Source: Ashinkailepas kermadecensis
Taxonomy: Eukaryota; Arthropoda; Thecostraca; Neolepadidae
Reading direction: 5' to 3'
Length of the DNA stretch: 64,000 nt
Assembly (NCBI GenBank): GCA_034440615.1
Contig: JAOTOM010004317.1
Coordinates: forward strand, 1 to 64,000
How positions within the stretch are numbered: the first letter of the stretch is position 1; every line of letters starts with the position of its first letter. A model generated the notes under the pieces. It ran no database searches. It was not told where the DNA came from and worked only from the letters and a program-made list of their open reading frames with translations. Both the position numbers and the translations under genes were made by a program. Positions 2,172 through 38,800 of this stretch are shown in pieces.

Positions 2172-2184
2172 TTCCTTGTTGTGT

Positions 2185-2238
2185 TGGTTGGTTATTTGGG
2201 CTTAAGGGCGCATCGACTGCGTTGGTCATACACGCCCA
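2185..2238 (-). mobile_element. Ultra-short SINE-tail element (54 bp) with 13-bp duplication
   Basis: The core reads on the plus strand TGGTTGGTTATTTGGGCTTA then GGGCGCATCGACTGCG..GGTCAT..CGCCC. It is flanked by perfect copies of TTCCTTGTTGTGT (2172-2184 and 2239-2251). The strand is given as that of the related SINE tail. Confidence 0.88.
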
Positions 2239-2251
2239 TTCCTTGTTGTGT

Positions 2252-3840
2252 AATTTACGTCATGAATTAGCATGTTTTTATATATTTTTACGCCCGTTGG
2301 TAATAAAGTAGCAAGTTGCGACCAGCATGTGGATTTTGTCAATACCTAGGTTTATTGACAATATTATTTATAGATATTCTCTAACGATTCCGGGAAGAAA
2401 GATGCAACTTTTGAATGTTTACTTAATTATAGAAGAGTCGAACTTTTCTACTTTCAATTTTAATTTTGAAGCTATGCTTCCATTGGTTTTTCCTTCCTGG
2501 GACAAAACAAAACTTACAATTTCCAAAATCGTCTACAAATTTGGCACAAGCACCAATGAAGTTACATTGACGTCTATGTGACACTAATGACGACATTTTC
2601 GCCACAGGGCAACGGCTTTTGGTGATGGTGATCCGGCCCACCGCTACTCCCCTCATCCCATACACTTTCCTTCAATAGCTGTGCTGTGCTGTGGTGCGGC
2701 GCCAAAAAGTCGCATCTCCAGCATTCAGAAAACATCAAGTTTGAAATCCTGCAACGCACACATGATCGGCGCATGCTCGTCGCTATTCAATCAGGGACCC
2801 TCCTTAGCGATCCGGGGCCTGCTCTGTCGGACCGGAGGCCCTCTTTCAACAGCTTGGGCACCTCCATCAGGCCACGGGCCCTTGTAGGGCAGCCACATCC
2901 GTCTGCCCAAGAACACTTTCTGACAGCCCGAGGTCCCGTCCGGCGGTATGCCCCCCTCAGTCGTCTCAAGGCCCATTTCCGACAAGCCGGATGCCGTTTT
3001 TCAAAACTGTAGGCCCTCTCCTTCAGGACAGGGGCCATTTCTTTGGCTTGGGCCTCGCCGTCAACTCAGGGGCCTTTCATATTGGCTCCGGGCCCTCTCA
3101 GTCAGCCCTTGCCCTTCCAACGACCCGAGGCCCCTCCGTCGACATGGAGGCCCTTCATGTTGTTCCAGCCCGGGCCCTCGATATCTTCCCAAGGGCACTC
3201 CGTTGACTTCCGTCAGCCGGTTCAGAGGCCCTTCACAGGGTCCAGGGTGCTCTTGCTGGTCCCCTGCACCGACGCCTTCAGGGCTCTTGCGGCCTCTCAG
3301 TACGGTCGCCTGGGGGGCCCCTTGGACCACCAGGTGGGTGGCTGCTCCCGGCGCCACAGGGCAATGCCACTGAAATGACGTGGGTTTTGAGAAGACAAAA
3401 ATGTTGCATCCACAACAGTTGATATTGCAGGTGCAATGTTTATCTGCAACATGCGTTCTCCACGCAAGCCTGTGGGCCTCCTGTTGCCTAAAATCGAAAA
3501 CACAGTGTATCACTTGGTGTCACTTTTGATGTAGACTACGTCACGTAGACAGTTTCTGAGCCCGGATTCATTCATGTGAAGGACATAGCCACTCATCCAT
3601 GAGCGGAGATAATTGAACATATCTAATGACGATTAATGCCGTGTGAAAAAAAAATCCGTTTCCGGTGGATCGTCAAAAAGCCGGTTCCGAAAAGCCGTCA
3701 CAGTTGTCTCCAACATGATCTTTTTGCGCTCGCCACGATCTCGACCAGATTGAAACGCTGCGGTCGCACTCTGGCTAGACGAACGAGTTTCGTTCAATGC
3801 AGTGTGGTGGTGGTGTGGGTGGGTGGGGGGGGGGGGGGTG
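2252..3840. other. Mostly unique DNA with a diverged GGCCC-rich block
   Basis: At 2800-3260 GGCCC-type words recur every 30-45 bp, suggesting a very old tandem array. TTTATT at 2351-2356 could be a distant poly(A) signal for VGLL4. A GTGGGTGG run with a long G homopolymer lies at 3802-3840. Confidence 0.45.
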
Positions 3841-3849
3841 AACCGCAAC

Positions 3850-4150
3850 ACCTACCGACTCAGTAACACTCGCCCCTGTCTCCGTCGGCGGATCTGTTCG
3901 GCTGGACGCGAGCGGACGCTGGGGCGGCCAGGTCGTGTCGCCGCCGGCGCGGCGGCGGCGCGGCCTCTGCGGCCGTCCAAGGCCGACCGTGTGGCGCCAG
4001 GTGGCCGCGGCTTATCCGTCCATCGGCCGCCGGCACGCTCGGCCGCCGCCGGAAGCGGGCGCGTCCAGTCCGGCGTGGCTGTGCCGCCGTGGCTGTGTGA
4101 CCGGCCGCGGCCGGCCCACACACCTGGTCTGGTCTGCAGTCGGCCGTCCG
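3850..4150. other. CpG-dense block
   Basis: Very GC- and CpG-rich DNA downstream of the VGLL4 stop. Open frames occur on both strands without recognisable motifs. Confidence 0.5.
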
Positions 4151-4410
4151 GTCAGCAGTCGGCCCCGGCGTCGGTCTGGGGTGTCGTCAGGTGTGCTCTG
4201 GTGTCCGGTGTCGGTCTGGGGTGTGTCGTCAGGTGTGATCTGGTGTTCAGTCCCGGCGTCGGTCTGGGGTGTCGTCAGGTGTGCTCGGGTGTCCGGTGTC
4301 GTCAGGTGTGCTCGGGTGTCCGGTGTCCGTCTGGGGTGTGTCGTCGGGTGTGCTCTGGTGTCGGTCTGGGTGTCGTCAGGTGTGCTCCGGTGTCCAGTCC
4401 CGGTCTCCGC
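4150..4410. repeat. GTCGGTCTGGGGTGTCGTCAGG-type tandem repeat
   Basis: About six diverged units of 35-48 bp built of CTGGGGTGTCGTCAGGTGTG and CTCTGGTGTCCGGT. Confidence 0.8.
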
Positions 4411-4699
4411 ATATGTACAAAATTCAGGGCACGTAACCCGATTTAACCATCGTTGGTTTCAGTATCGGGCCAGCTTCCTCACCTGCGGTGCACGTCCAAT
4501 GGTACGATCACTGTCTGGCGCACAGCACGAGCCTTGAGGCGCCGACATGACACATGGCTCGGTCAATCACTCACGGGCCGAGCCCTGAGGCGTCGATTGC
4601 CGGCCGGGCAGTCGACAGGACGTAGCGGGACCAGCACACAGCGCGGCCAGTCAGTCAGCTTTGTATTTACAGTATACAGGCAATGGATGAGGACTTCTG

Positions 4700-5764
4700 G
4701 TAAATCTTAACAAAACAGCTCCCCGAGTGTCGGCGCCGGAGCTTGGACTTGCCAGTCGCCACAGCGGAGGGTTGTGCCTCCGGTGATGCGAGCGTCACAG
4801 TCGCGCCGAAACAGAGAGCGACACGCCGCGTGACGCCGCGTGACGCCGGGAACGCAGACGGCGCCGACGCGACGCCGTGCCCTTGGGGCGCGCTCTCCAA
4901 CGTGTGACTATCTGGCGGGCAAGCGAGGCTGCCGCGGTCGACACAGAGCCGCTGCTGAACAGAACACGCGTACGACAGACGGCGGCGGTAGCGTGCGGGC
5001 GCGGCCACAGCCGGCCAGCCACACTGCGCCAAACCCAATAACAAAATACAAAACAACGTGTCTCTGCCATCACAGATTATTGTACTGTACAAAATAACCG
5101 CCGTCGGTCGGAGCCCTACAAGCACACCTACATCCCAGCGGCGGGCGAGCGCGCGCCGGTGCCCCGCCCACTTCCTGATTGTTGCACGGCGGCGGTGACT
5201 CTGCCGCCGGCTGACGCGGCTGACGGCCGCACGGCCGCCTCCAATGAGCGGCCCGCGCGGGGCTGGCACTGGCGCCGGCTCGGGCGCCGTCGCGAAAGCG
5301 AAACAAAGCGCAACGCGCCACACACAAACCTCCACGGCGGGGAGCACGGAGTGGCGCGCTGCCCGCGCGCGCCTGCTGCGTCTGTTGGCGGGCCACGCCA
5401 GCTCCCGCCCGAAGGGTGTTCACGTCACCGCCGTTGCCACGTGAAGACGCCCCGAACACCGACTGCTGCGCTCCCGGCCACCGACGCACCGACTCGTCCG
5501 GGTCGCAGACACACGCACACACACGCACATGAACACACACGCACACACATGAACGCACCCGACCGACGACCGACAGCGTGAGTCCATTGCGGTGCCGGGC
5601 GCTGACTACAGTACGGTGTGCCACCCCGCTGCCGATCGGCGGACGTCCGCGTCGCGCGCCACTGTTGGTGACGTCACCGCTGTACCGATACGTGTGTGAC
5701 GTCACTACGTCTGTCGGCCGGCGCGGCGGTGCGGCGGCGGCATGGAGAGTGGAGCGTGCGGCGT
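4700..5764. other. CpG-dense DNA directly 3' of the VGLL4 stop
   Basis: This stretch probably includes the start of the VGLL4 3' UTR. It holds a CA-rich microsatellite at 5505-5560. No other gene is recognised. Confidence 0.45.
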
Positions 5765-5868
5765 TCATGTCACCAGCGGCAAAACCTTGGACACCTGGTC
5801 GCTGGCCTGGTCTTGCTCCTGCAGCTTCACCCACGTGTCTCCCAGCGCCTTGGCGAAGTGATCGTCCA
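5765..5868 (-). CDS. VGLL4: VGLL4 terminal coding exon (second Tondu motif, stop)
   Basis: This exon is 104 nt: two bases completing Val223, 33 codons and TGA. The acceptor is CCATTGCCCACAG|TG. It encodes VDDHFAKALGDTW, identical to the second TDU motif of vertebrate VGLL4 as remembered, then a short tail (VKLQEQDQASDQVSKVLPLVT). The vertebrate C-terminal Ser-rich tail is absent, so the protein ends 21 residues after the TDU. The following 1.9 kb on the minus strand is CpG-dense and presumably starts the 3' UTR; no convincing nearby AATAAA was seen. Confidence 0.95.
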
Positions 5869-8800
5869 CTGTGGGCAATGGAGCAGTCGTCAGCACCACC
5901 AAGCATTGCCTGGGGAACCACTCAGGACGGATATTGTCGTCGCAACACCAAATGTACTGGTGTTCTCCCACCTATTATCCGAACAGTGAAAAATCAACGG
6001 GCACAAACAGAAATGAGTGAACACACACACACGTGCACACACGCACACGCACGCCGACACCCACAGGCAGATTAACGGGCGTCCACAGAGACGAACGGAC
6101 ACCAAAAGACAGATACAGAGATGAACCAAGACGCCACCGAACACGAACCGGCACCCACTGCACGAATGGATACCCTGAGAAACAGTCACTGCTGAGCACC
6201 GACAAAACGCTTCTGAAACGAGCAGAGCCAGCACCGAAACATACATCCAAAGACAGGAAAGAGCAACAAGCAGCGACGTGGTTTATCAAAACGACGGTGC
6301 GTCCAATGAACAGCCACCAAAGGCCCCCAGCAGCTGGAGAGCAGCCGTGAGCTCCAGCTCCAGTGTCAGTGTCATCATACCCGTCGAGGACGAACTGGCA
6401 CAACTGATCGTCGCCGAACCTATTCTAGTCTGGAGCGCGCGAACATTGGCATGCACGGATTTGGATATCCTTGGGCTCGGGAGAGAGACAGAGAGAAATG
6501 TGCCGCATGCATCCTACCAGGACGCGCCCCTCCCCACACACATACACAGACACAAGCAAACACACTCGGGCAGCTGTCTGGGTTTTAAACGAGCTCGGCG
6601 TTTTATGATATCGATATGATATCGATATCACTTGGAGGCTCCTCGTGCATTATCAATGCGGATTCCCAGCATTGAAGTCAATCCCATGGTATCCTATGTT
6701 AAGCCCAGAAAGCCCAGAGGAAAAGTCGGCAATTGGGTGGAAAGTGGCCTATCCAAAAGTGTTGAAAGCGGCCCCCACGTTGCACCTGCATGCAACGCAG
6801 AACAATATAAGCCAGTTCGTGTTCAAATCCATTCCAGTCCTCAATACGAAACAAAAATACAGCGAATAAATCACCTCGGTGTGCAGCAAGCGCACACAAA
6901 TCGCTCGACTTGCCAGGTGGTATCGCCTGAAATGTATGCCCAGCCAGCATGCTGGCAGCGAGCGGTTTTGCATGACTTGTGATGGCGCATGATGTCGGCA
7001 TTCACGTCGCCGTTGTGGTGGGGGTAGGGGAGGGGGTGCGTGACGAGCTCGGCTCGGATCCACCGATACACTGTTCGGCCAGCACGGACTGCTGCACCGA
7101 ACACACCCGACCCGCTCTCGGAGCACAGCCAGTTCGACACACGAGTGACCCGTTGTACAGGCCGGTCACGTGAGCTACCGTACCGTTCCATTCGACACTT
7201 TTTATTGTCAAGCAGACTTGGGGGGGGGGTTAGGGGCGCATCGACTGCAGTGGTCATGCAGCGTCAAGCAGACTTAATACTCTTCAGGATCGAAGGGGTC
7301 TTTTAAGTCGACAGGTCAGGCCTCTTCTATGTGTTGGCCACCGAGTACCTATTATGCTACTTCTCATAAATGTCTTCTCCAACTATCTACTCATGACAAT
7401 GGGTCCCTGCCAAAACTGTCGAGTATCTTACATTGTGTTGTCTTTCGAGGCTGAGTTTCAAAGCTAGCCGTTCAGACATCAAGAACCGCTGACTCCTGTA
7501 TCAAACGACTGCAATGAATGTGGATGCAATGGCGGCGACCGAATCTTAATTTGACACTGGTGATTGTCCCTGAAACTGCCGACCACAAACGTGCTCAACT
7601 GGCACCACCACTTCTTTCTCCGCGAAAATGAATTATTTATTGGCTTGTCAGATCACTTTTAATGCCAACACAGTGTCAGACTTGGTTTGCGCCTACCGCC
7701 GTGGCCAGGTTACTTAATTCGCATACTAAGCTTCGGCGATTTGCTTAGTTGGTATCATGCCTTGGTTAAACATCCACACGTCGACAACCCTCAATGAATC
7801 ATGAGCCATTTGCTTGATGAAACGTGCTGTACATTATTTTGGGTAACGTAGTGCTATCGCCAACGATGGGCATAAGACTGTACTTTCAAAGCTACTAAGG
7901 AAGTACAAGTTATGAATGGCAAGTGGACATGAAATATGCAGTGTTTTGGAAACCAAATGAACTAACACAACGAAAATAACTTTACCGTATGTAGGCGTGG
8001 TGTTTTAGGGCAGTTCCCAAAGCGTTGGAAAGTGCAGTTATCTGTCGGACACCTTTACAAGTGCCGCAGGGAACTTTCAACATGAACACAACTTTTGGAA
8101 CTATCACTGGTGGGCAGAAGTAAGACATCAACCGCCCCATTACTGCCAATCAACTTGGTTTTGGTTGTGCTAGCGTTGCCTCTGTGGGACATGTAATTCT
8201 ACGAAACTTAACATGAAGCTGAACAAATATTGTACAGGTTGCTTCGCTGGTTATTGGGGTTTAGGGACGCATCGACTGCGTGGTCATGCAGCGCCCTATT
8301 GTACAGGCCCTCGACATGATATTGTCACTCGATATATTATATTTCATTGACAAACTCGTGCACCCCGTGTCTGTTGCATGCATACCAGATGAAACGAGCG
8401 ACTTTTAAGCCTGGCGAGCCCACGATAGGAACGTTGCAGCACTGTTCATCGCTCGCGGTATATGTGAAGCAAGAGCGCAACAGTAACCTTCTATCCACTG
8501 GTGATGGACAAATTCAGTCATTTGTCTTTACCAGTAGAATACCGCCGAGTGGTAAACAATAAAGAAATGTAGAATATATTAGACCTTTCCGAAGATGAAT
8601 GTATGAAACAGCAGTCCAATTGGGATCAATAAGATATGGGCATGAGGAGCGCCATTTGTTTTTCAGTTTCGTCAGTACGAAAAACGTTCATTGCTCACGG
8701 TGTATTTTGATTTGGAACACACAGCGACGTTGCCGAAGTGGTTTAAGCGAACCTGAATCGGGCTTCGCTATGCTGACGAATTCGGTAATAACACGGATCA

Positions 8801-11800
8801 TACCTAGCTCACAAATCCGGATGGCAAGGCATAACGCTTTGTTGCGCCTGTATTCTACGAATATTTCGGTATGTGCAAGTCATGGAGGTTGATAGGGTCA
8901 CTAAATTGTCGAGCAGCCAGTGTTTAAGAAAATAACTGCGCACGGTAAAATGTCATACGTGAGCACACAAGAGCCACAAGAAAGCACAATAAAGGTAGCG
9001 AACTACATCAAATGATAGTTCAGTGACTGCCGCCAGTGTTGTAAAGATGCACAAGGTGGACTACCAGGTGGAGATGTAGAAGATGTTGAAAATAATTGTG
9101 CTCATTGTTAAACACCCCGGGCCGTCTCCAAAGAAACGTCTTGCCGAAATCCACTGAAGAGCGGCCGTGGTTTTCATCGGGATAAAACAAAGCTAGTTGG
9201 AAAACCATCAGGGCTGGAACTTTGCTCAAATGACTGTGGTGCTCAGGTAGTTTCAAAATCGGTTGATGTACTGTACGACAACAAGCTCAGGATATAAAAA
9301 TCATAGATTCGAGCCCCCAATACATGAACAATTTCACTCGTGCATAATGCAATCACCGAAGTGGCGTTGCAATGCCACGAACGTCATGCTGAACTGTCGG
9401 GACTTGATCCGCATACGCTGCTTCCACTGACCTGACATGCCCGTGACGTCATTCGCCTGAGCTTGGGGCGGAGACGGCGTGCTGCTCTTGAAGATGGACG
9501 CGTAATGCGTACCGAGAGAGCGCCGGAAGTGTTCGTCTATTACCGGGTCACACACACCGCGAAAATCTGAAAACACAGGCGTCATCAGCATGACTTGCGC
9601 TGCTACTGCTGCTCCACACTACGTCACCAATGGTGAGTCGCCATCCCCCCCCACCTCCGCCGGTCCTGCCGCTGCTGCTCCACACCACGTCACCAATGGT
9701 GAGCCGCCGCCACCCCCCACCGCCGCCGGTCCTGCCGCTGCTGCTCCACACCACGCCACCAATGGTGAGTCGCCCCCCACCCCACCTCCGCCGGTCCTGC
9801 CGCTGCTGCTCCACACCACGCCACCAATGGTGAGTCGCCCCCCACCCCACCTCCGCCGGTCCTGCCGCTGCTGCTCCACACCACGCCACCAGTGGTGAGC
9901 CCCGATCGCCGCCCCCCACCTCCGTCGGGATACGCGACCGACAATCTACCGGCGGGTTATCGGCGCTCAGAGGCAGACGCCGTTGGACATCCGACTACAA
10001 ACGGTCATCCGCCGGCCATGTTGGAGATGTTTTATGGCTCGGATCTGGGCAAGGCCGCCCAGACGGAGTGGTGGGGATGGGGCGGACGAGACTGGCAGCG
10101 AGCAGGAGACTGGCGATCGGCGACCACAGTGTGCATGGCGTGCGGCAGCGGGGCCACGCGTGTCAGGACATCTGCCAACTGGGGACGGTATGTTCGCTGG
10201 AAGGTAGCCCGACAGCGGGGCGGCACGTGTCGGTGGTGGTTGTGACCTTACGACGAACTCAGCAGCTGAGGGCATATGGCGTCGCCTGCCTTTCACCCTG
10301 GCAGGAAGAGCGGGTACCGCGGGGAATCGAACTCAGTACCTCTGGCCTGCCAGATGCTCAGATAACCACTGAGCTACCAAGGCCCCGGCAGCACGTGTCA
10401 AGACATCTGCCAACTGGGTACGGTATCTTCGCTGAAAGGTAGCCGACATATACATCGCGTGCTGTATGTCTCATCGTCTACCGGGTATGCAATCCGCAAA
10501 CACCCCCACGGGACTTGTATCACCAAGAGCTCTACAAACAGCACATATTCAAACAAGCACACCTTGCTACTACTTGTTACTTACTACTTGTGTGTACTTG
10601 CTACACTCACCGAATATCGGTGCAGCATTTTGAGCGTCAGAACCACTTCCTGTTCGGCTTAACGAGCCAAGCCGAAACCCGGAGCTTCCATAAAGTAGGC
10701 TGTCGGACAGCCACTTCAGAATTACACCACTATTAATGACGCGACAATCAAGCCGGCAAACATTTGTCACGATGTAGTCGCCAGCATTCGTTAATTTGAG
10801 CGTGAATGCATTCACAGGACTTCTGCGTCGGATAAAGCTGGAAGGTAATTAAATGAATGTGAAGTATTTTTGCAGCATTCAGTGCCAAATTTCAGAAATC
10901 TTGTTAGGGTGCCACCCCTCCTCCCATAAAATGATCAGCGATGAAGCTACCAGTCGATGCATTCGTGTGTCTTCTGGTGCTACTACACGGAGGCACTATT
11001 TCATCCAACACGCGTGTGTTTCAGACCGCAAAGGTATAATACCAATGTCCTAACGCCGTCGACTCGCCCAGCTGTGTGCTCCGGAGATCTGCGATACCCC
11101 CTCCGATCTCGGAGGCGAATCTCCCATCAGATGGTACCGAATCTCCCATCAGATGGTGCCGAATCTCCCATCGGCGAATCTCCCATCAGATGGTGCCGCC
11201 GCACCGAACATGGCCGGACCCAGGAGATGAATCTCTCTCTCATCAGACGGCACCACCGCCCGGACACAGCCAGTGCTCTGGAGATAAACTTATCATTAGA
11301 CGGACCGCCTCCCGGACATGGCCGTGGCCCGGCAGATGAATCTCTCCGATCAGACGGACCCGGTCGAGGCCCAGGAGATGAACCCCTCTGACCAGACGGA
11401 CCCGGCCGCCGGACACAGCCGGCTGGGACACGACGGGGGACACGGTCGGCGAGAGCACCGCCCACCGGCGGGATTAGGCCGGCACGTCACTGTCGCACGG
11501 CTCCAAGCCGTTCGACACGCGCCAGATTGGACTTCAGTCGGCGCTGAGACGTACAAATTGGAGAGGCGACGACAGGTCACGCCGGCCGGCGCCGACACGT
11601 ACGGAACCCGTCGGACGGCCAGACGACGGCCGGCCCCGCCGACCTCTCGGGGGAGTCGCGCGCCGGGCGGGCGGGCGGCGCTCCTCGTTATCCAGCACGC
11701 TTGTTTATAATTGTTCCGAGCACCTGGCTTAATCACGCGCTACGCAGCTACCAGCGTGGAATCACTGCGGCAGTTGTGGACGGAGTAATTGGCATGAGAG

Positions 11801-14800
11801 CGTAACGTGCATCATCAAATGCGTACTACACATCCATTTGTGAGGCTTGACGACCTTGTGCGGCGTTGGCGACCTTGAGAACAGATGGCAGCACCGTAGC
11901 TCGTGTTGGATCTTTGTTGGAGGCCATCAAACAATGGTGCGTTGAAACACTGCTTTTCCCGGCTCGTGCCTCTCGTGTAAAGCGCGTCAAGCAGCTGGTG
12001 TTTTATATAAAACGGGATAAACGTCAAATATAAGAAACGTACATTGCACAAGCACTCATTATCGCTACCAGCTACCGACGTTGCTAACGAAGCTTGCGCA
12101 ATCTGGCGTCCCAGCCCTGTATCCAATATCTCGCCCTCGCGAGTGGTGAGTGTCAGACAGCAGCTTCCAGCGAGCACGTTCACATCTTCACCACGGTGAC
12201 CATGACGTCGAGCCCGGCGGCCACGCTCCTGGCCTTCGCCTCGCCGCCCGCTCAGGTGCACAATGCCGGCGCAGGGCGCACCGCGTTCAAAATCTGACGA
12301 GATAAAAGTTCTTGATTGTACACACGCCGCGCAGCGACGGCGGGACGCGCTCCGCACGCAGCGGTCGCGCGCAAAAACGGCGCCAGCGCGCCGGCCGCCG
12401 GTCCGGTCCCGCCGCCGCCGTCATATCCATATTCATCGGGAGCGGCGGCGCGGCGCCGACGGCCGGCGCTCTTCCCGGCAAAAAGCCGTCCTGTGCCGTG
12501 TCCTGGTGTTACAGATTCTCCGAGCATAAACATGGTGGCGCTGGTCCCGGCCCGCGGGCACACCAGCGCGCCATAATACCTGGCGCCGACGTGGGCCGGC
12601 CGGGCCGGCGGCAGGTGCCGGCCGGGCCAGCCAGCCGACACAGAGGGGAGGTGGCCGACCGGCGGTCGGGCCCGGCCGAGGGGGGTGTCGGCGCTGGCCA
12701 GGCCGGCCGGTCCAGCCGAGAGCAGGTGCCGTGCGCCGGCCCGCTACACGCTGCCGTCCCTGCCGGCCCGCTACACACGGCCGTCCCTGCCGGCCCGCTA
12801 CACACGGCCGTCCCTGCCGGCCCGCTACACACGGCCGTCCCTGCCGGCCCGCTACACACGGCCGTCCCTGCCGGCCCGCTACACACGGCCGTCCCTGCCG
12901 GCCCGCTACACACGGCCGTCCCTGCCGGCCCGCTACACACGGCCGTCCCTGCCGGCCCGCTACACACGGCCGTCCCTGCCGGCCCGCTACACACGGCCGT
13001 CCCTGCCGGCCCGCTACACACGGCCGTCCCTGCCGGCCCGCTACACACGGCCGTCCCTGCCGGCCCGCTACACAACACGGCCGTCCCTGCCGGCCCGCTA
13101 CACACGGCTGCCGTCCCTGCCGGCCCGCTACACAACACGGCCGTCCCTGCCGGCCCGCTACACACGGCCGTCCCTGCCGGCCCGCTACACAGGCTGTCCC
13201 TGCCGCCGCCTGCCGCCGCTACACACGGCCGTCCCTGCCGGCCCGCTACACACGGCCGTCCCTGCCGGGCCGCTAACACACCCGTCCCTGCCGCCCACGC
13301 GCCGTCCTGCGCCACACGGCCGTCCCTGCCGGCCCGCTACACACGGCCGTCCCTGCCGGCCCGCTACACACGGCCGTCCCTGCCGGCCCGCTACACACGG
13401 CCGTCCCTGCCGGCCCGCTACACACGGCCGTCCCTGCCGGCCCGCTACACACGGCCGTCCCTGCCGGCCCGCTACACGCTGCCGTCCCTGCCGGCCCGTC
13501 CTACACGGCCGTCCCTGCCGGCCCGCTACACACGGCCGTCCCTGCCGGCCCGCTACACACGGCCGTCCCTGCCGGCCCGCTACACACGGCCGTCCCTGCC
13601 GGCCCGCTACACACGGCCGTCCCTGCCGGCCCGCTACACACGGCCGTCCCTGCCGGCCCGCTACACACGGCCGTCCCTGCCGGCCCGCTACACACGGCCG
13701 TCCCTGCCGGCCCGCTACACGCGGCCGTCCCTGCCGGCCCGCTACACACGGCCGTCCCTGCCGCGCCGCTACACACGGCCGTCCCTGCCGGCCCGCTACA
13801 CACGGCCGTCCCTGCCGGCCCGCTACCTGGCACACGGCCGTCCCTGCCGGCCCGCTACACACGGCCGTCCCTGCCGGCCCGCTACACACGGCCGTCCCTG
13901 CCGGCCCGCTACACACGGCCGTCCCTGCCGGCCCGCTACACACGGCCGTCCCTGCCGGCCCGCTACACACGGCCGTCCCTGCCGGCCCGCTACACACACG
14001 GCCGTCCCTGCCGGCCCGCTACACACGGCCGTCCCTGCCGGCCCGCTACACACGGCCGTCCCTGCCGGCCCGCTACACACGGCCGTCCCTGCCGGCCCGC
14101 TACACACGGCCGTCCCTGCCGGCCCGCTACACACGGCCGTCCCTGCCGGCCCGCTACACGCTGCCGTCCCTGCCGGCCCGCTACACACTGCCGTCCCTGC
14201 CGGCCCGCTACACACGGCCGTCCCTGCCGGCCCGCTACACACGGCCGTCCCTGCCGGCCCGCTACACACGGCCGTCCCTGCCGGCCCGCTACACACGGCC
14301 GTCCCTGCCGGCCCGCTACACACGGCCGTCCCTGCCGGCCCGCTACACACGGCCGTCCCTGCCGGCCCGCTACACACGGCCGTCCCTGCCGGCCCGCTAC
14401 ACACGGCCGTCCCTGCCGGCCCGCTACACACGGCCGTCCCTGCCGGCCCGCTACACACGGCCGTCCCTGCCGGCCCGCTACACACGGCCGTCCCTGCCGG
14501 CCCGTGCCGTCCCTGCCGGCCCGCTACACACGGCCGTCCCTGCCGGCCCGCTACACACGGCCGTCCCTGCCGGCCCGCTACACGCTGCCGTCCCTGCCGG
14601 CCCGCTACACACGGCCGTCCCTGCCGGCCCGCTACACGCTGCCGTCCCTGCCGGCCCGCTACACACGGCCGTCCCTGCCGGCCCGCTCACACACGGCCGT
14701 CCCTGCCGGCCCGCTACACACGGCTGTCCCTGCCGGCCCGCTACACACGGCCGTCCCTGCCGGCCCGCTACACACTGCCGTCCCTGCCGGCCCGCTACAC

Positions 14801-26800: not shown

Positions 26801-29800
26801 TTGCTTTCGAATCCACTACTGGTGCATTCCTACGCATTAATGCCCCACAGTCCATCATCTTGTTGGTTGGGTATTGGTTTTACAACACGTCGACCGTTGA
26901 GTCATGTAGCGTCGCCAATCTCTCACGCCGATTGGTCGCGGGCGAAGAGTAGCGACAGGTGAGACTCGAACCCACAACCTTTCGATTGTGAGACGAGCAT
27001 CTTACCCCTAGACCACCATCTTAATTCCTGAATAACCTGCAGCACCCGACGCATCACCCACTGACCTCGGGTCGACATCGCTCCGTGCCCGGTGACCCCT
27101 GGTGCCACAAAGCCATTCCCGCACGCATCCACCGGAAACCCCTGGAAACCGGCCGAATCACTCGAAACGTCAGCCACCAACCACGTCCTAATCTCGCCAA
27201 CTAGTGCCGACTGGCTGACGGGGCTGTACAAAGTCAGCCGGCCGGGGCTCGACTCGCCGAGTCAAATTGGCCGTGCAGAATGGCGGCCACTTTAACGCCT
27301 CACTTCGTCCACCATCAGACTAGATTCGACGTCGTCCCGAGTAAAGGTCACCGACGACTGATGAGAGAACTTGGCGAGGCGCTGGCCACTGAACTCTCCA
27401 TCTTTGTCCTGATGCGGTTTCAGAGCAGACAGGCCCATCCCCACTGGGCACGCGCTACCGCGGCAGGTCGACCGACCTCCGTTCCGGAGATGCGCTGTGA
27501 GGACGACGCGCCTGATTCGCGCCGAGGCGAGCTCCCGGCGCCGACAACAATCACCACTGAGTGGATCTGCCATCAGTAAAACCACTACATCGTCGCCCAG
27601 GGCACGTGTTGCCAGACAGACACACGACACACTGATGCAAAACCCGCCCACAGGGTCGGTCGTCCAGCTACTTCATCTCGTCCCCGACGTGGGAATAACG
27701 GTGCAAAGACTGATGTCTTCGCATGTCTGATGTCTTCAAAGACTATGGCCACGTAGATCGGCAGGTCGGGATGGGGGACCAGCACCCCCACCATGTCGTG
27801 CCCAGGGGTACGCCGGACGACGGTCAGCAATTGACGATCGACGCCAGGCGATTTGAACCGCCGGGTCATATCAGGTCAGCGCAGGTCATGACTGGGCCTC
27901 CGAGTTGGATCATAGCTGAATCTGGGTAAATAGGCCAACCCGATACCGGCACCAGCACCAGGGTTGCGTAAGTTTGCGGAAGGAGAAGAATGCACGAGAC
28001 CCAGCAGTTGAGACAAGCGGTCGCCGCCGCTCAGTGATGAGCATACCTCCTGAGCCGGAGCTTGGACGCGGTGAGTGGGTCGCTTCGTCTGCTCTCGGCC
28101 CTCTCCAGCTTCCTCTGACGCGTGGGCAGATCTTTGGCGGGCGACCGGCGGTCCAGCGAGGGCGCGGGCGGGTGGGCCGAGCCGCCGCCACCGTCACCGC
28201 CGCCGCCGCCGCCCCCGCCCAGGGGACGCTGCGCCGCTTGGCGTCGTAACTCCTCTGAAACAGACCACGCCCACCGTCAGCCACGAGCCTGTGATGACAC
28301 GTCACGACACACGAGGCGGGTGAGGCACAGCGGTGACTCCGATACGTCACCCGCCGTCGTCGACCCCGTCCGCACCGCCCACGTCACATCGCGTGAAGAG
28401 AAATAAACAGCCGGGTACTGGCGGCCGGCCGCGAATTAAGTCATCTGTCAGTGGCGGCCGTCCGACCAGGCTGTCGGCGCCGGCGGCAATCAGAGCACCG
28501 ACGGAGCCACCGGAGCCGCCGCCGCCGCAGGTGTATTGACCGGCCACCGAGTCGCGTCGGTGATGATTAATCGCGCCTGAAGCGTCGCCACGGAAGCCCC
28601 GCACCTATTGTCACTCGAATCGATCCCACAACCGCCGGCCGGCCCGCGGCGTCGCGACCAGCCCAGCCGGCAGACCTGCAGAGATGACGGGCAGACCGCG
28701 GCCGGCAGACCTGCCCTGCAGTCTCCGTGTCGGAGACCGGTGCGACCCTGGAGTCTCCAGCAGGAACAGCTGCCGACAGACCGTCCCCGTGTTGGTGACC
28801 CGTGCGGCCCTGGAGTCACCGTGTTGGAGACCCGTGCGGCCCAGGAGTCCCCGTGTCGGTGACCGGTGCGGCGCTGGAGTCCCCAGTAGGTCTGGTGACC
28901 GGTGCGACCCTGGAGTCACCGTGTAGCAGGAACAGCTGCCGACAGACCGTCCCCGTGTTGGAGACCCGTGCGGCCCAGGAGTCCCCGTGTTGGAGACCCG
29001 GGGCCAGAGTCCCCGGTTGACCGGTGCGGCCGCTGGAGTCCCCGTGGCGGTGACCGGTGCGGCCCAGGAGTCCCCGTGTCGGTGACCGGTGCGGCGCTGG
29101 AGTCCCCAGTAGGAAACGCTGCCCGCCAGCTGGATGACATGGAAAGGGGAATTGGCCGCCCGCATTGCCAACGATGGATGATCAAGCGGTGTCAGGCCGC
29201 AGACGTAACCGTCCCGGCCAAGATCAGGAGTTGGAAGTTACATCGTTATTGAGCAACAAACATATCCCAGAAAAAATGCATCATTCTGAGCGGCACGCAT
29301 TCTTAGGAAGCTGCTAGCAAAGTTAGGCACGAGTTTCTGTAAGCATGCTTGCCATTTCAGCCTCAATGTCCACTTCGCACGCAGTACAGAAATGTTGCAA
29401 AAAAATCGAAGGCGCAATTGTTTAATCCAAGGCATAATTGTTCCATCACATGTTGCGCAAAAGCGTGGAAAATATATCATCTTATCCGGAATGCTTTGTT
29501 ATTAACAAGTTGAAACCCATGAATGAATGACCATGAACGATGACCATGAAACCTAGATGTATATGTCAACTTACAACTTTTCGGTATATTTGCCTACTAA
29601 CTTTCCATTGTCATGATTTACAAATCAGTAGCGGCATTGGAAATGATGAATTACGCAACGAACATACCTTCGAATAAAGCACTGATATTACCATTATAAA
29701 GTATTTCTTAATGTTTGGAAGTAAGGACAAATGGCTCACTATTCATTGCAATTAGTTGTAAGATTTGGTGTCTTGAAATACATAGAAAATACATAGAAGC

Positions 29801-32800
29801 ACGTGATTGTCCAGCAAAATCCAGCGGCGTTTCGTTGATACGAATAGAATGTGTTCCCAGGGATAGTTTCACCAAAATAATCCACATAAACATACACATT
29901 CACATATGCACATCATGAGCTTCAACAGGCCGCGAATGTCTGGGCGAAGCGCCCAAAAGCAAAAATAACGATCCTGGACAGACGAATTTCGCTCAGCAGG
30001 CCACGTGTGGGGACATCGCACGGGCCAGCTCGGGGTGAACCGTGCTGATTAACCAGGCGACGAACTTCGCTCAGCAGGCCACGTGTGGGAACACGCACGG
30101 ACTTAGCTCAGCAGGCCACCGTGCCGATCCTGGACAGACGAACTTCGCTCAGCAGGCCACGTGTGGGACAGACGAACTTCGCTCAGCAGGCCACGTGTGG
30201 GAACATCGCACGGGCCAAGCTCGGGGTGAACCGTGCTGATCTGAGTGTTGACGAAAGTGTGGTCCCATTACCGCGGATACTACCGATACAGGTACCGATA
30301 CTACCGATGCAGGTACCAATACTACCGATACGGGTACCAATACTACCGATACAGGTACCGATACTACCGATACAGGTACCAATACTACCGATACAGGTAC
30401 CAATACTACCGATACTACCGATGCAGGCACCAATACTACCGATGCAGGTACCAATACTACCGATACAGGTACCAATACTACCGATACAGGTACCAATACT
30501 ACCGATGCAGGTACCAATACTACCGATGCAGGTACCAATACTACCGATACAGGTACCGATACTACCGATACAGATACCGATACAGTGCAAAGGTATTGAT
30601 CAGTAGAGGTCCGGTACGGTTTGAATGCAAGATTTGAACGTTGTGTGGCAGCAATAGACATCCATATCGCCTAAAGACCCACACGTGGAGAGGGGCAAAC
30701 GCACAGCCTTTGCCAATGGGAAGTCACGAAGTCGATACCATAATAATGCATGCGATAATACAGCGGCTTGTGCCTGGGAGGAATACGGCTCACACCGGCA
30801 GCGTGTAGCCGTACGCGTGCTGGTAATGGAGGTTGTGCTGTGTTTGTCATTTGCATACATGAACATTTACCAGCTTGACATCCATATGTGCTTCGTTGCA
30901 AGCTCAGTAGCCATCACATGCATTACTGGTGTCTGCTTTCAGTGAAGCATGACGCCGCAATAATCTTATTCATATTTGTTCCGTGGAAAAGTTGGTTTCC
31001 TTTTCATTGGTGTTTGTAGTGTTCCGAAATGGAAATAGGTACGTTATTTAGAAAGCCATTTTTGTTCTATTTGGTAATTATCAGAGAGAACCGAGTTGTC
31101 ATGCACCTTTACATGTGGAACGTTCAGACATTGGAATCTGGCATCAGACAGAAAAAAAAACTGATAAATCCACGGGCTTCAACATATTTCATACAAAACA
31201 AGCTGGCACCGTGTCACTCTCAAACAGGACGATTCAACAGTCCAGCAAGGAAAAGGAGACGACAGTCTTCTGGATTACAAAGTCCAGGACAATGCCGTTT
31301 TCTCCCGCCGTGTGTGGATCTGCGCTCCAGTGAAGTGGCTCCATCCCCTGGCCGGACGGCCTCTCCGGCGCCTGGGTCGGTGGGGCAGGCCTTGGAACGG
31401 TCACGCGAGTCGTGGCCGTAGTCGTGGCCGAGAGCGCTCGGCTGTACACATCACACGGCCGGAGAAGTTCCGGCCGCGTGCGCCGCAAACGCCGCCGGCT
31501 CCGGCCGACCGTCCGACTCTCCTGCTCGGCGAAGAGAATCTCCAGCGAGGAGATTCTCTTGGCGCGACTTCGCGGCGAGACATGGCGACGCAGGACGACC
31601 GGCGGCGGTGCCCGGTCGCGCACGGCGCGCCCTGGAACCCGCCTGGGGCGGCTGCGGCTGCGCGATCGCGCTGCTGGGCGGCTGCGGACGACCCTGGGCG
31701 GCTCGCGGGCGACTGTGGGCCGAGCGAAACGAAACGCTCGACAAGTTCCGGACCACCGGTCCAATGCCTGGCGTTGGAAGAACGCGGAACAGGTGGCGGC
31801 GAGCTGGATTGTCGCTGCGCTCGCGGAGCGCATACTGCTGTGGTGCCCACCGGTCGACACGCACGCAAAATCGCTCCTTGGTTTCCTCGTGGCATTCCGC
31901 TCCAACTGCAATCGTGTGGTAAAACGACCAATACATTGGTTTTGTATATAATGCGTAATCCAGACTTTCGACAAGTCAGTCAAGGTCAAGCCAGTTCCAA
32001 TTTAGCGCGGAAATGACAGGCAACAATCGACTCTTTGTATGTACCAGCGTGGTAAGTTTTCGAGGCTCTCTCTCACACCCATCCCAAATCTCAGAGTGAC
32101 TTCCATGGTATATTCGCAGGTCACGCCTGCCTTCTGAAAGTGGAAGACTTCTCGACTTCTCCTCTGTGTGCTGTTCTTTTCCATCTGCATACGCATCCGT
32201 CGACGAGGCAGCGTTCACATCACCATATTTCGAATTATCCAGCTTCTTCCGAAGCCCAGCCTCCCCCTTCCACCCATGCTCTGCCAGCCCCACCAACAGA
32301 TGAAACTCCATGGCACAACGTCCACATCACCGTTGTTTACGTGACAACGCTATCGTCGCGTGTTTTCTTTACGGGACAACGCCCATGCGCCGGCCGGAAG
32401 AAGTGGTGCCACAACAGACTAAGCAACGATCACCAGCCGGCGCTGGCGGGGGTGTAGCGCTGCTATCCACAACATCCACCATCACGCCATCGCCAACGGA
32501 ACGCCCGTGACAAAACGCGATGCAGCGCCACGACTTTCCTTCCGTGCGGGGGCCATTACGCCCCGTCAAGGCGCTTACACACACCATCCCAGCATAAATA
32601 AGGCGGGCGCTGGACGCAGCCCGCCGACGGCGCAGCGCGAGAGGCGGCGGCCGGTCGGCCGGCCCACCAGCGTCTCATTAGGGCGGCCGGGGTTCAGCGC
32701 CCCCTCCACACGGGCCGGCAGTAAACAGGGCCGCGCCGACCACGCGGCGGAACCTTGCCGCGGGCGGCGCCGGCAGCGCTGCTCGGCGCGCAGGTACCGC

Positions 32801-35800
32801 TGAATTACAGGTGTCCGCCGGCCGGCGTGCGATCGCATTGTGCACCGCGACCGCCGTCAGCCCTGCCGCGAGACCGGCAAACAAAAACGGCGGCGCGGCA
32901 GCGTGGCGGCGACGGCGGCGGCGGGGCCCATGCGTGGACGCCCAGATCTCGGCCGGAGAAGGGCCGCTACGGCACCCCCTCCTCTCTCTAATGACGCTCA
33001 TGATCGCGGCTAATTTTGGGGGAGTTTCGGGGCGCAGGGCCAGGCCGGATGCGTGTCCCATTCAGCGGGGTCGAGCGGCGTCTTTGAGCCTGCACCGGAC
33101 AACCGGGATTAACGGCAATTTCACGTTTTACTGGATGTGTGAATGGGGCGCGCGGCTGCTTTTGTGCGCTTGTCCGCCACCGAGCCAATTTAGCGACACG
33201 ACTGAACGACGAAGGCTGTACACAACCGAAAATGAATAATACGCACGGCGGCGCCAGTGGGCGCCACCAGCCCGACTGACGGCGGAGCGGCTTCAGGTGG
33301 CCCGGCCCGCCTCTCTGCGGCTCAGTCTGGCCGGGCCGTAGAATAGGTAGGTGCCGCCAGGATGCCGACCAACCGTCAGCTGCCGTCACCTTAGACGGCA
33401 TAAGCAAACCACCTGGTGTCTCCGGCAATCCGACGGACAGCTCCACAGACAACTCCACAGACAACTCCACAGACAGCTCCACAGATAGCTCCACAGATAG
33501 CTCCACAAACGACTCCACAGACAGCTTGTAGATCTGGACAGGCCCTACAGAGCAGGACCCAGAAACCACAGACTACCTTGCATCGCCGGTCCTACAGAGC
33601 ATGACAGACCCCCATATTGCCGAAACTCGAAACCAGAGAACGCCCCACAGACACTGCCTACTCCACATTGCGTAGTGGAGCGGCTGTGGTCCCGAACAGC
33701 CGGCCTTATAGGCCAGAGAGCGCCCTACAGACCACAGCCGGCCCTATAGGTCAGAGATCGCCCTACAGCCAACGGCCGGCCCTATAGACAAGGACACGAC
33801 AAGCAGAAGGCAGCTGCCCATCGACCTTGGGACTCCCTCACCTCCTCTAACTTTTTCGGTATATGGAAAGGCACATTGAAAATGCATACTTCAGACAGCT
33901 ATTATGTATTAACGGAACTTATCAACAAGGATTCAAGGGTTAGCATATACAACTTCGAAGTATTTCCCCGGTATGTCCCCTCACCTGGGCCGTTAAATTA
34001 TATGTAGACCATTCAAATAGCAAGGGATCATATCTGATTGCGTAGTAGCTTCGTCGCTTCAAATTGAATGCGCACTGTAGAGGCAAAGAATTTGCCCCAT
34101 CTGCCCGTGACAATTTCGGAATTTCGTTCGATATCATTTGACTTCCGACAGTTGGTCGGTTGGTTAGTTGGGAATTAAGGACGCATCTACTGCATCGGTC
34201 ACAAAACGCCAAATCGACAGTTGGTTGTTGCTATGATACCAGCCCTCGAAGTTAGTGTTGACCACACGAATTCGCGCAGCACGGGGGCTATTGTGGTGCT
34301 CATGTTGTGTGTGTTTGTGAAGTGGACGCCTGATGTCTAGAGCATAATCTATACTAGGTTATGGGAGGGGCTCAACTGAACATCGAAAGGGCAAAGACAG
34401 AGATATGCTCCCATGCCCGTGCTCCTGAAAACCCATGCTCCTGAAAACGTCCTTAAGAGAAAATTATTCCTTCGGCTTCACAAGCCATAGCTTCCCTACA
34501 TTGGCTTTGGCTTTTGTCATTTTCAACTACCGGCTTCAGCTTCCGTTTGTACAGTTATTTTATCGGTCGGCTTGGGCTTGGGCGTGGGCTTCGAGCGATT
34601 TTCAACTGCTGGCTGTGGCTTCGGCTCGTGTATGGTCTAAGTGCTTCTAAACAACACGCATCTAAACTAAACAATCCGTCAATCTTGGGGCGCGAACTGT
34701 GGTCGGTTCCGAATGAGACGCCCGAAGTTGCTCCGTCTGTGACAGACCCGGGCACGGCTAAGTACACTGTATTGAGCACTGCTTCAGTGGAACTGCACGA
34801 CGCAGCTACGGCTGCTTAATGGATGCCGAGATCGGCCAGGACGTCGATCCCAGGTGTGCAGCTGCTCTGTGGACAGACCCCGTGAAACAGGAGGGTTAGA
34901 CAGATCAGGAGATCAGGACTGTGCCCTTGCAACCTGCCCCTTGAGCGCGACGCATTGCCAAGGACTACGCAGCCCGCAGCATTGCCTACCTCAGTCGCAC
35001 AACTGAGGTACTCTCAGCCGCCGTCTCACTACGTTTCGGCAGGATGGTGGCCGAAAAGGAATGGGACTACCACATAACATCTCATCACCGTGCTTCAAGA
35101 CAGGCAGAGGAGCCACCTGCGGAAACAGGATGTGCCATTTTGGCACATCGGCATTAAAACACAATCTCATTCCGCCGAACTTGGAAGTAATCTGGCCGAA
35201 ATCGGACAAATCGGCCGAATGGAGTGAACGTATCCGACCAGGTGCACTTTGACGAATTGTCGACTAAACATGGGTGTCACGCCGTGTCACTTCATCTTTT
35301 GTTCCAGCCCTTCCGCCCAGCTTACGCCGTATACAGCTGTTCAGCCCGACACCCTCCATCGGACTGACTGGTCAAGCAGTCAACCGGCCTTGCGACGCGC
35401 AGGTCACATGGCATAACCATATAGCGCGTATCCGGAGCCTGGCTCGCAGCCCCTCAGTCGGAGCCGGCTGGATTTCAACCAACTGAGCTCCATCATGAAG
35501 CATTTTCTTCGAGAGAAAAAAACATGCAGACTTCAAAGAAAATGTTTCAGCCTAAACTCTTAAAGCCAAAAGTTAAAGATCAGGTCGCATCTGAACGCAT
35601 TAATCCGGACTTGAAACGCTGTGCATAAACAAAAACATTAATGTTTCAAGCGTATGCTGGTCGTTTGGACCTGGCCGGCCCCTCATATGAACGTGCGCCG
35701 TATGCAGACGGGGAGAAGATTCGCTGGGGCACCGACCTCGCTCGTGAATGTCCATCACATGCGATAACGGGTACTTATGTCCAAGGGACTCGGCGATGGC

Positions 35801-38800
35801 CAGTGCTGCCACAGTGAAGAGAAGTAACAACTACGACAAATACATATTCAATACGGCATGTTTTCATCACGATGAAGTGTTCCTTTCCACGAGCTTGGCA
35901 GAACAAGACAGAAGATGCCAGGGCGTCTTCCGTATTGAAGCAGACAACCCAACCGGCGACAGCTCGGCCGCCGGAGGTCATCCGGACAGCAACTGTCCCA
36001 CCGCCAGAGGGTATCCAGAGAGCAACTGTCCCACCGCCAGGGGGTATCCGGACAGCAACTGTCCCACCGCCAGAAGGTATCCGGACAGCAACTGTCCCAC
36101 CGCCAGAGGGTATCCGGACAGCAGATCTTGACCAGTAGGAGCAAGATATCCACCAGATCGATTGTGTATAGTTAGGATGTTTGGGTACGTCGGCTGCTTC
36201 GGCTATATTGCACTCATTACTTACACCAGAACGACTCGCGGATCAAAACGTTGCAACATAGTTAGAAACATAGTCATTCAGTCAACGTTGGGTTTATTCG
36301 AACATCGGGCAATAGTCAATATAAATTAAAGCTGCGAAACCAGAGCAGCCTTTCCTGCAGGCAAAGAAGTATACCTGAACACGTACGGATGGGGAAGGGT
36401 GAGCATTCTGGGCAATCCTACCACCCCGCAAAAAGACGTCTTAGCACAAAAAGTGTGTTCTTCAAAATGACATGCGTTGCATAACGAATAGTTGTATGTA
36501 CTTCCAAGCAGGGGTAGATATTCCACGTAGTTATTGAGAATAGGGGTGCACCGGATTCCTGATTTCAGAATATTCGTAAATCGAGACGGATTTCACCTAA
36601 ATTTGGTCGGTTTGCTGGGCTGTTCCTTTTTGTTTTTGTTTTCGTTTAGTATCATCGGATTGATAGAGATAAAAATTTGGACATACCTTCTAATTAATGC
36701 CATGGTCATTTGGAACACCTTGAGAGAGCTTTTTTCCTTCTCTGGTTCAATCGTCTCTAATCCAGCCAGAGGCCGGCTTTTCCTACGCCCTCCCCTCAAT
36801 GTCAAACATCCGGGACGGTAAGAAGTGAGAATGAGCAGCTACAGTGGCTGCAGTGACTGTCAGCTGCAGTGGCTGTCAGCTGCAGTGCCTGTCAGCTGCA
36901 GTGGCTGTCAGTTGCACTAACTGCAGTGGTTGTCAACTGCAGTGGCTACAGTGGCTGTCAGTTGCACTGGCCACAGTGGCTGTCATCCGCAGTCGCTGTC
37001 AGCCGCCCCCCCCTTCCCCCCTGCGCCGCCACTCCGTTCCCCACCGCCTCGTGTGGCATGCAACGAGGAGTTTTGGCATAGCTGAAGCGGGGCGGGCTCA
37101 GATCTGTCTATTGATGTCTTAGTTCGGATCATTAATGCCGCACGAAAATACCCACCATTTCCTCAGCTGAATCTAGCAGTAAAAGGAATGGGGAAGCGAA
37201 AGATGATGTATGTTTTTTTTTAAATTGAGGGGTCATGTTTCTTACTGAAGAAAGTTGCCAAATGTGGGCACATTATAAGATCTTAGATCGATAATTCTTT
37301 CAATAGTATTCGTTAACTATGAAAGTAGCCTGGCTTGTGAATGATGACGCAGTTTTCAATTTATCGTGACATGATGATAACTTTGAGGTAGATATGCCAA
37401 GAAGTTTGAGAAACAAAAAATGCAACATAGTGTTGGAAATGCAATCCCTGCATATAGGAACATGGGAAGATCACGTTTCTTCGTGGTACTATTGACTGAA
37501 TAGTGAGATCCAGATTTTGAATAATTACAAATCCGGGTTGCTTGGCAAACCCGGCAAATCTGGTTACAGCTTGGTTTCCAATCCATGAATCCGGTACACC
37601 CCACACTGGCAGTGCCCAGCAATGCCTAAGCTGATGAAGTCAAAACGCGCTGCTATGGCAGGTCACATGGTTCCATGCTAACTATCAAATTGTAGGAGGG
37701 ACTCAACTGATCATTGAATGGGCTCAGCCTCTCAAAAACTAGGAAGCTGGACATGCACCCACCCACTTGATTGGCCTAAAGCATTAAAATCCATTTGTTG
37801 TTTTTACATCTGAGAAAATGGTCCCATGTCATTCAGTCATTCACTACAGCCATGGGTGTCGTTTTACATACATACTTTTGAGGGGACGAGTGCCCCCTCA
37901 ATGTTGGCTTTGCCCCCTCGCCTCCCCATAATTTCAACTTTAAACATGGGACCTTATGGAGCGTGCACCTCTCCCAAATCCATTTCGATCGCCCATGTCC
38001 TCCATGTACTGTGCCTCCCCACTAACTTTCAGAAACCAGCACCCGGCTAGGGCACATGGCTGAGTACGCCGTGGTGTTGTACGACCTTCACCAGCTGACA
38101 TGCACGGAATTAGCGCCACCCCACTAGTCACACGTGGTGGTGGTGGTGGATTTGTGCTTTAGGGCGCGTCGACTGCAATGGTCATTTTGCGCCCATCACT
38201 AGTCACACGTGATCGCATCGACATTGTCCGGAGCGGAACACAGGTCTGGTGCCAGTGCTTCGGCGATCTCGACGTAAAAACAGACCGCTTCACACCACGG
38301 CCAGGGATGTGGTCATGCCATGGCCAGGGATGTGGTCATGCCATGGCCAGGGATGTGGTCATGCCACGGCCAGGGATGTGGTCATGCCACGGCCAGGGAT
38401 GTGGTCATGCCATGGCCAGGGATGTGGTCATGCCATGGCCAGGGATGTGGTCATGCCATGGCCAGGGATGTGGTCACACCACGGCCAGGGATGTGGTCAT
38501 GCCATGGCCAGGGATGCTCACAACACCACTCCGTCGGACGATGGCTAGGGATACGTCGATTGCTCTCGGGTCTCGGTAACCTCGCGGTAATCCCGTCGGT
38601 CGTGAGATTCGAGCCCATGATCCAACGCTTAAGGATTCAGCGCCGTACCGACTGAGCTGCGTCGATCCCGATCCCGCGTCACACCATGGTCAGGGATGCC
38701 GCCACACCATGGTCAGGGATGCCGCCACACCATGGTCAGGGATACCGCCACACCATGGTCAGGGATACCACCACATCATGGTCAGGGATGCCGCCACACC

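Follow-up and report, generated by a model that had tools for sequence, protein, structure and literature searches.

Short insertions in Ashinkailepas kermadecensis that probably derive from the 3′ hairpin and repeat tail of a LINE family

Background

How can a unit of only 43 to 60 bp insert repeatedly, each time bracketed by a perfect target-site duplication (TSD)? This question is raised by 64,000 nucleotides from Ashinkailepas kermadecensis (Arthropoda; Thecostraca; Neolepadidae), positions 1 to 64,000 of the forward strand of contig JAOTOM010004317.1 (assembly GCA_034440615.1), referred to here as the window. A first-pass annotation, made from the letters alone, had described five such insertions and taken them for a stand-alone element without a name. 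Here we present a different reading, which we consider probable: the insertions consist only of the 3′ hairpin and repeat tail of a family of long interspersed nuclear elements (LINEs), likely inserted through target-primed reverse transcription by the reverse transcriptase of that LINE from RNA trimmed to the foot of the hairpin.

Results

Five short insertions with perfect duplications

All five insertions are present, with TSDs of 13, 13, 11, 11 and 15 bp that are identical at 63 of 63 positions (c1 to c5, Table 1). An exact repeat of at least 11 bp was found at 108 of 20,000 random positions, using the same search box outside tandem arrays, so its presence at five of five copies is not due to chance. 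Each copy inserted independently, as had been proposed, and all are indeed far shorter than ordinary short interspersed nuclear elements (SINEs). Mean hairpin identity among the five is 80 % (10 pairs); because the hairpins diverge by about 20 % while the TSDs are still perfect, short copies of this kind were probably produced repeatedly and from several different source RNAs. The 15-base core shared by the copies has two exact matches in the window and three more at up to two mismatches; at up to three mismatches there are nine, against 3.07 expected.

Layout of the short copies

On the minus strand, each unit runs from a hairpin (GGGCGC...GCGCCC) through TAA and a short A/C-rich stretch to a variable simple-repeat tail that directly abuts the 3′ TSD. 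The hairpin takes the form GGGCGC(TGCA)TGACC..GCAGTCGATGCGCCC, with variation among copies, and the tail is (AACC)n, (ACC)n or a run of C depending on the copy. Such a tail is found in the five window copies and in most of the sampled copies displayed. The short copies therefore have the layout of a retroposon, with a constant 5′ end and their most variable part in a 3′ tail, and the orientation originally claimed has to be reversed. The CGCCC end described as common to all copies marks the 5′ end, and not all five have it: c2, which starts 4 nt inside the 5′ arm of the hairpin, is without it, and c4 reads CGCCAAAT. The other end does vary in length, as noted in the first pass, and is the 3′ repeat tail. 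Folded in the RNA sense, three of the eight window hairpins are clearly better than shuffled sequences (c1, z −3.0; c3, z −1.9; c5, z −2.3); plus-strand folds of whole copies are no better than shuffles, a comparison that is not strict since different stretches were folded.

Small size and an inverted repeat would also befit a miniature DNA transposon whose inverted ends are GGGCGC and GCGCCC. We regard this as almost certainly wrong: one inverted arm is internal, one end of the unit is the variable tail, and LINE parents share the same end. Terminal inverted repeats and a fixed TSD length, both expected of a miniature inverted-repeat transposable element, are not found.

Longer relatives ending in the same hairpin

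Two fetched loci, L029 and L050, have 1,350 bp in common at 94 %; the shared stretch ends in the hairpin, beyond which the two diverge, and in L029 a 13-bp TSD lies 2,592 bp upstream. The same element, also seen in L062, contains an open frame with CCHC-like knuckles recognized by eye, and in L062 some 150 nt separate the end of this first open reading frame (ORF1) from the hairpin. Pfam gave no match for four frames of the element, and a zinc-knuckle match below the cut-off for a fifth, on the opposite strand of L050. Scoring 111 of 3,848 candidates in the genome gave 117 matches to ORF1, a lower bound that includes some split pieces; a frame of 608 amino acids is open in many of these matches, so that this ORF1-only LINE derivative was perhaps recently active. 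It is comparable to the HAL1 half-LINEs, likewise ORF1-only LINE derivatives in the accessible part of PMC5322556; as described there, HAL1 elements are coding, run to kilobases and have a poly(A) end. The comparison concerns the ORF1-only element, a relative that stands beside the short copies.

At locus L072 lies a 420-amino-acid fragment of a LINE second open reading frame (ORF2), in which Pfam recognizes an RNase H domain (E 2.2e-10); some 130 nt beyond the fragment come TTATGGCGCTGTATGACCTCTGCAGTCGATGCGCCCC and an AACCT-like tail. The fragment has 256 database relatives; among the 120 listed, several carry reverse transcriptase together with RNase H domains, and the best named ones, at 52-54 % identity, belong to the barnacle Amphibalanus amphitrite. 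Because close variants of this 3′ end terminate the ORF1-only derivative and follow the RNase H ORF2 fragment, the short units are, on sequence grounds, the 3′ ends of a LINE family and not the separate stand-alone element first proposed. The core is a LINE tail module, which in diverged form also terminates a transfer RNA (tRNA) SINE described below. A second parent-like family may stand behind L083 and L089, which share upstream sequence alone.

Genome-wide abundance and start points

A genome-wide core search, suggested in the first pass, covered 907,663,968 bases in 4,689 contigs. It found 7,942 exact copies of the 15-base core (4,046 forward and 3,896 reverse), against 0 and 1 for the reversed control. 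A sample composed of 60 fetched places around listed core sites, three places returned by search and the window yielded 98 matches at E ≤ 1e-4. From these we dropped six matches of the SINE1 type (Table 1) and 32 whose downstream flank is shared with an earlier match, which are short copies carried inside other repeats; the remaining 60 were kept as independent. A TSD with a score of at least 10 adjoins the short copy in 33 of the 60, and its length is 10-15 bp in 28 of those 33. Score and place condition were jointly satisfied at 4.5 % of 3,000 random places.

The 5′ ends of these copies are tightly clustered. Twenty-nine of the 33 start at −7 to +4 relative to the first base of the hairpin, a 12-nt interval at the hairpin foot, with peaks at +1 (8 copies) and −4 (7 copies). 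The earlier view of a defined unit, as opposed to random fragments, is confirmed in this respect. It had also been asked whether the core might always be part of a longer element truncated here: longer elements do exist, but among sampled copies with readable ends the short form prevails. Public scans with GCATCGACTGCNNTGGTCAT returned one viral and 17 prokaryote contigs, by our own estimate about what chance gives for 18 specified bases.

Ordinary 5′ truncation by a weakly processive enzyme, with short LINE and SINE copies merely being common, seems to us very unlikely. Truncation of this kind is usual for LINEs, leaving lengths of 100 to 1,000 bp according to the accessible part of PMC3747384, and five copies do retain about 0.4-0.9 kb of ORF1-element sequence. 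Like 5′-truncated LINEs, the short copies possess the LINE 3′ end, but their 5′ ends, instead of being spread over the parent, fall in the 12-nt interval with its two peaks and few starts just above it. If truncation were uniform over SINE1, the starts of the five window copies would have P 8e-5. A model of exponential truncation (mean 5-10 nt) can by itself give their tight range (P 0.06-0.32), and P is at most 0.003 if a 6-nt minimum is also required. The window alone thus leaves some room for ordinary truncation, against which the genome sample speaks.

Alternatively, the full-length LINE or SINE RNA could serve as template and the reverse transcriptase release it after unwinding the hairpin, the same protein holding the hairpin foot, so that the short copies are enzyme stops. 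Such stops would suit the two sharp peaks of start positions, at the foot and 4 nt into the stem, and the 1-4 extra 5′ bases that precede the hairpin look templated by the LINE flank: in 13 of 14 copies they end in T, like the flank TTGTTAT. Frequent read-through in copies of the ORF1 element and of SINE1 argues in the other direction, and an enzyme would be expected to stop before opening the stem, not after. On this evidence we consider enzyme stops unlikely.

The clustered 5′ ends and the 7,942 exact cores would also be accounted for by a dedicated master locus, namely a small RNA gene (about 55 nt) that arose from a LINE tail, is transcribed and was amplified as a miniature non-autonomous retroposon. 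Such a master is nevertheless improbable in our judgment, for diverse copies with perfect TSDs point to many sources, and the extra 5′ bases match the LINE flank. Nor did Rfam find a family at E ≤ 1 in positions 8200-8340, which contain c3, the one short copy scanned at this lax threshold.

Share of short and long copies

How often the hairpin is inserted without its LINE was estimated from a subfamily defined by the exact 26-mer ATATGACCATTGCAGTCGATGCGCCC, with 408 copies in the genome. At the first 100 listed sites, the next 11 bases of the LINE are exact in 28 and not in 72. An ORF1 match lies upstream at 19 of the 28 flank-bearing sites and at 5 of the 72 others; since ORF1 matching scored part of the candidates, an absent match is no proof of a short copy. 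Of the nine flank-bearing sites without an ORF1 match, seven were fetched and five of these are long, which suggests that roughly three quarters of the long copies of the ORF1 element are recovered by ORF1 matching. By our arithmetic, long copies should then account for about a third of the 100 sites. For most of the 72, mutation in the 11 flank bases is not the explanation. Among 12 fetched sites that have the flank TTAT and no ORF1 match, nine carry ORF1-element sequence upstream of the hairpin (the five of about 0.4-0.9 kb mentioned above and four that reach the fetched edge), while the other three are short, with starts at +5, +8 and +28. L072 belongs to this group of loci.

Table 1 Short copies and tRNA-headed SINEs in the window, with their duplications
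Feature	Position	Strand	Length (bp)	Description	TSD
c1	2185-2238	minus	54	short hairpin and tail copy	13 bp, TTCCTTGTTGTGT, 2172-2184 and 2239-2251
c2	7220-7262	minus	43	short copy, C-run tail	13 bp, GTCAAGCAGACTT, 7207-7219 and 7263-7275
c3	8239-8296	minus	58	short copy	11 bp, TATTGTACAGG, 8228-8238 and 8297-8307
c4	34157-34214	minus	58	short copy	11 bp, CGACAGTTGGT, 34146-34156 and 34215-34225
c5	38137-38196	minus	60	short copy, (ACC)n tail	15 bp, CACTAGTCACACGTG, 38122-38136 and 38197-38211
c7	48771-48829	minus	59	probable decayed sixth short copy	imperfect, by eye, ATATGgaCGTTG 48759-48770 / ATATGCGTTG 48830-48839
SINE1	26862-27012	minus		tRNA-headed SINE	by eye, AAGATGgTGG 27013-27022 / AAGATGaTGG 26852-26861
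SINE2	10232-10386	minus		second tRNA-headed SINE, (ACC)n tail	by eye, GACACGTGCtGCC 10387-10399 / GACACGTGCcGCC 10219-10231

tRNA-headed SINEs and a probable sixth copy

The five copies first listed stand, and two further members of the set had been missed, SINE1 and the probable copy c7. SINE1 contains the sole tRNA found in the window by ARAGORN and Rfam. A profile of the short copies finds its 3′ end, with E 0.64 when SINE1 is left out of the profile, and its last 57 bp align to the short copies better than shuffled sequences do (0 of 2,000 shuffles equal; 3 of 5,000 without the tail, at a site chosen by scanning). The body of SINE2 is akin to that of SINE1 (E 8.9e-5, plus an alignment). 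The hairpin of SINE2 was rejected as a relative of the short copies because its match, taken without the tail, falls short of significance (1,696 of 5,000 shuffles). A 17-bp direct repeat GACATCTGCCAACTGGG at 10167-10418 encloses SINE2 together with some of the flanking sequence and is probably a local repeat unit.

For c7, nhmmer gives E 0.033 and the hairpin aligns with z 6.5 relative to shuffled sequences, at a site chosen by scanning, which is weak when taken alone; its TSD score is by itself ordinary. A further weak match, c8 (36183-36210), lies near a repeat identical at 10 of 11 positions and was left uncounted. Sub-threshold matches on the minus strand were likewise rejected as more decayed copies, the reversed-sequence control being biased to that strand as well.

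Discussion

How a LINE might insert its own 3′ end

In the reading we prefer, the ORF2 protein of the LINE would bind the 3′ hairpin, as in stringent-type LINEs, and the bound hairpin would shield the last 55 nt or so of the RNA from decay while the RNA upstream is lost. The protected stub of hairpin and tail would then serve as template for reverse transcription. Nicking of the target and priming at the tail, with slippage, would fit both the 10-15 bp TSDs and the varying tails. The trimming of the RNA itself we infer. A broader proposal, to which we give slightly less than even odds, is that a LINE 3′ recognition hairpin freed from its transcript is a recurrent template, giving rise by our estimate thousands of times to the smallest retroposons known to us, with start points that mark the protected edge.

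Several observations weigh against this reading. The peak at −4 lies inside the stem and would not be expected if the stem foot were the one protected edge; it may represent a second edge or an enzyme stop. Four of the 33 clear copies start elsewhere (+9, +10, +14 and +25). The sampled sites were the first listed and lie on short contigs (10-45 kb), and 27 of the 60 copies are without a clear adjoining TSD: five are long and parent-like, one lies in a host repeat, ten score 8-9 and eleven have none, the last two groups making up 21 ambiguous copies. A TSD score of 10 is reached at 12.3 % of the random places when the place condition is dropped. The sampled loci are rich in tandem arrays, which contain no fewer than three of the 33 TSDs (L077, L085, L087). 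The tight range of the five window copies can, as noted above, be produced by an exponential alone. Folding gains over shuffles are slight in c2 (z −1.1) and SINE1 (z −1.0), and c4 (z −0.5), c7 and SINE2 fold no better than shuffles. Hairpin covariation is only suggestive, with 39 of 42 pairs retained, since 432 of 5,040 permutations equal it. Finally, SINE1-type copies are full-length, with a TSD 107-110 nt upstream in four of five tested; trimming is for this reason not universal, and the LINE machinery can pass the weaker hairpin of the SINE1 type.

Comparison with known systems

The zebrafish stringent-type LINEs ZfL2-1 and ZfL2-2 require a 3′ stem-loop that is bound by the ORF2 protein, according to the accessible part of PMC4176376. 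As described in that part, a hairpin is likewise followed by short repeat units at the LINE 3′ end, and by sequence this arrangement of stem-loop and short 3′ repeats is found in L029, L050, L062 and L072. The difference would be that hairpin and tail are here also inserted alone, an estimated thousands of times; ORF2 binding is in this case predicted. With tRNA-derived SINEs that have a LINE tail, the short copies have in common the LINE-shared 3′ end, the TSDs and a non-autonomous character, but they are without the tRNA head, and the scan of c3 found no RNA polymerase III small-RNA head.

The nearest published kind that we found are the tailless retropseudogenes, as far as the accessible part of PMC5322556 describes them. 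They too are short LINE-driven copies with TSDs, cut at defined structural positions of an RNA. Tailless retropseudogenes keep the 5′ part, lose the 3′ tail and break in single-stranded regions, whereas in the short copies described here the 3′ hairpin and tail survive and everything upstream is gone, making them a mirror image. None of the papers listed in our literature search, judged by title and the opening of the abstract, describes LINE insertions limited to a hairpin; subscription papers were for the most part outside that search.

If the proposed origin is correct, hairpin and tail are all that a LINE needs in its template, and the inserted ends offer a natural map of the minimal RNA used by LINE machinery. 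Repeat annotation easily misses units below 65 bp that have real TSDs, of which, by our sample, thousands are to be expected in the genome.

Further observations

Two sampled loci show short copies in close association. At L037:3018-3113 a second short copy with its own TSD lies in the tail of the first, and at L078:350-395 two short copies stand head to head. Two inverted cores exactly 438 bp apart recur in three listed contigs (L026, L041; G000 C65, C144, C286); these pairs seem to be carried by a larger repeat that multiplied.

All eight elements of the window, six short copies and two SINEs between 2172 and 48839, are on the minus strand; genome-wide, the exact core is unbiased (4,046 versus 3,896). 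Pfam gave no match for ten open reading frames of the window. Tandem repeats make up about 26 % of the window (1-64000), many of them minisatellites with units of 16-36 bp. At 40609-40692 a 13-bp direct repeat CGGTTGTTCTCCA surrounds an unrelated stretch of 58 bp, perhaps another short insertion.

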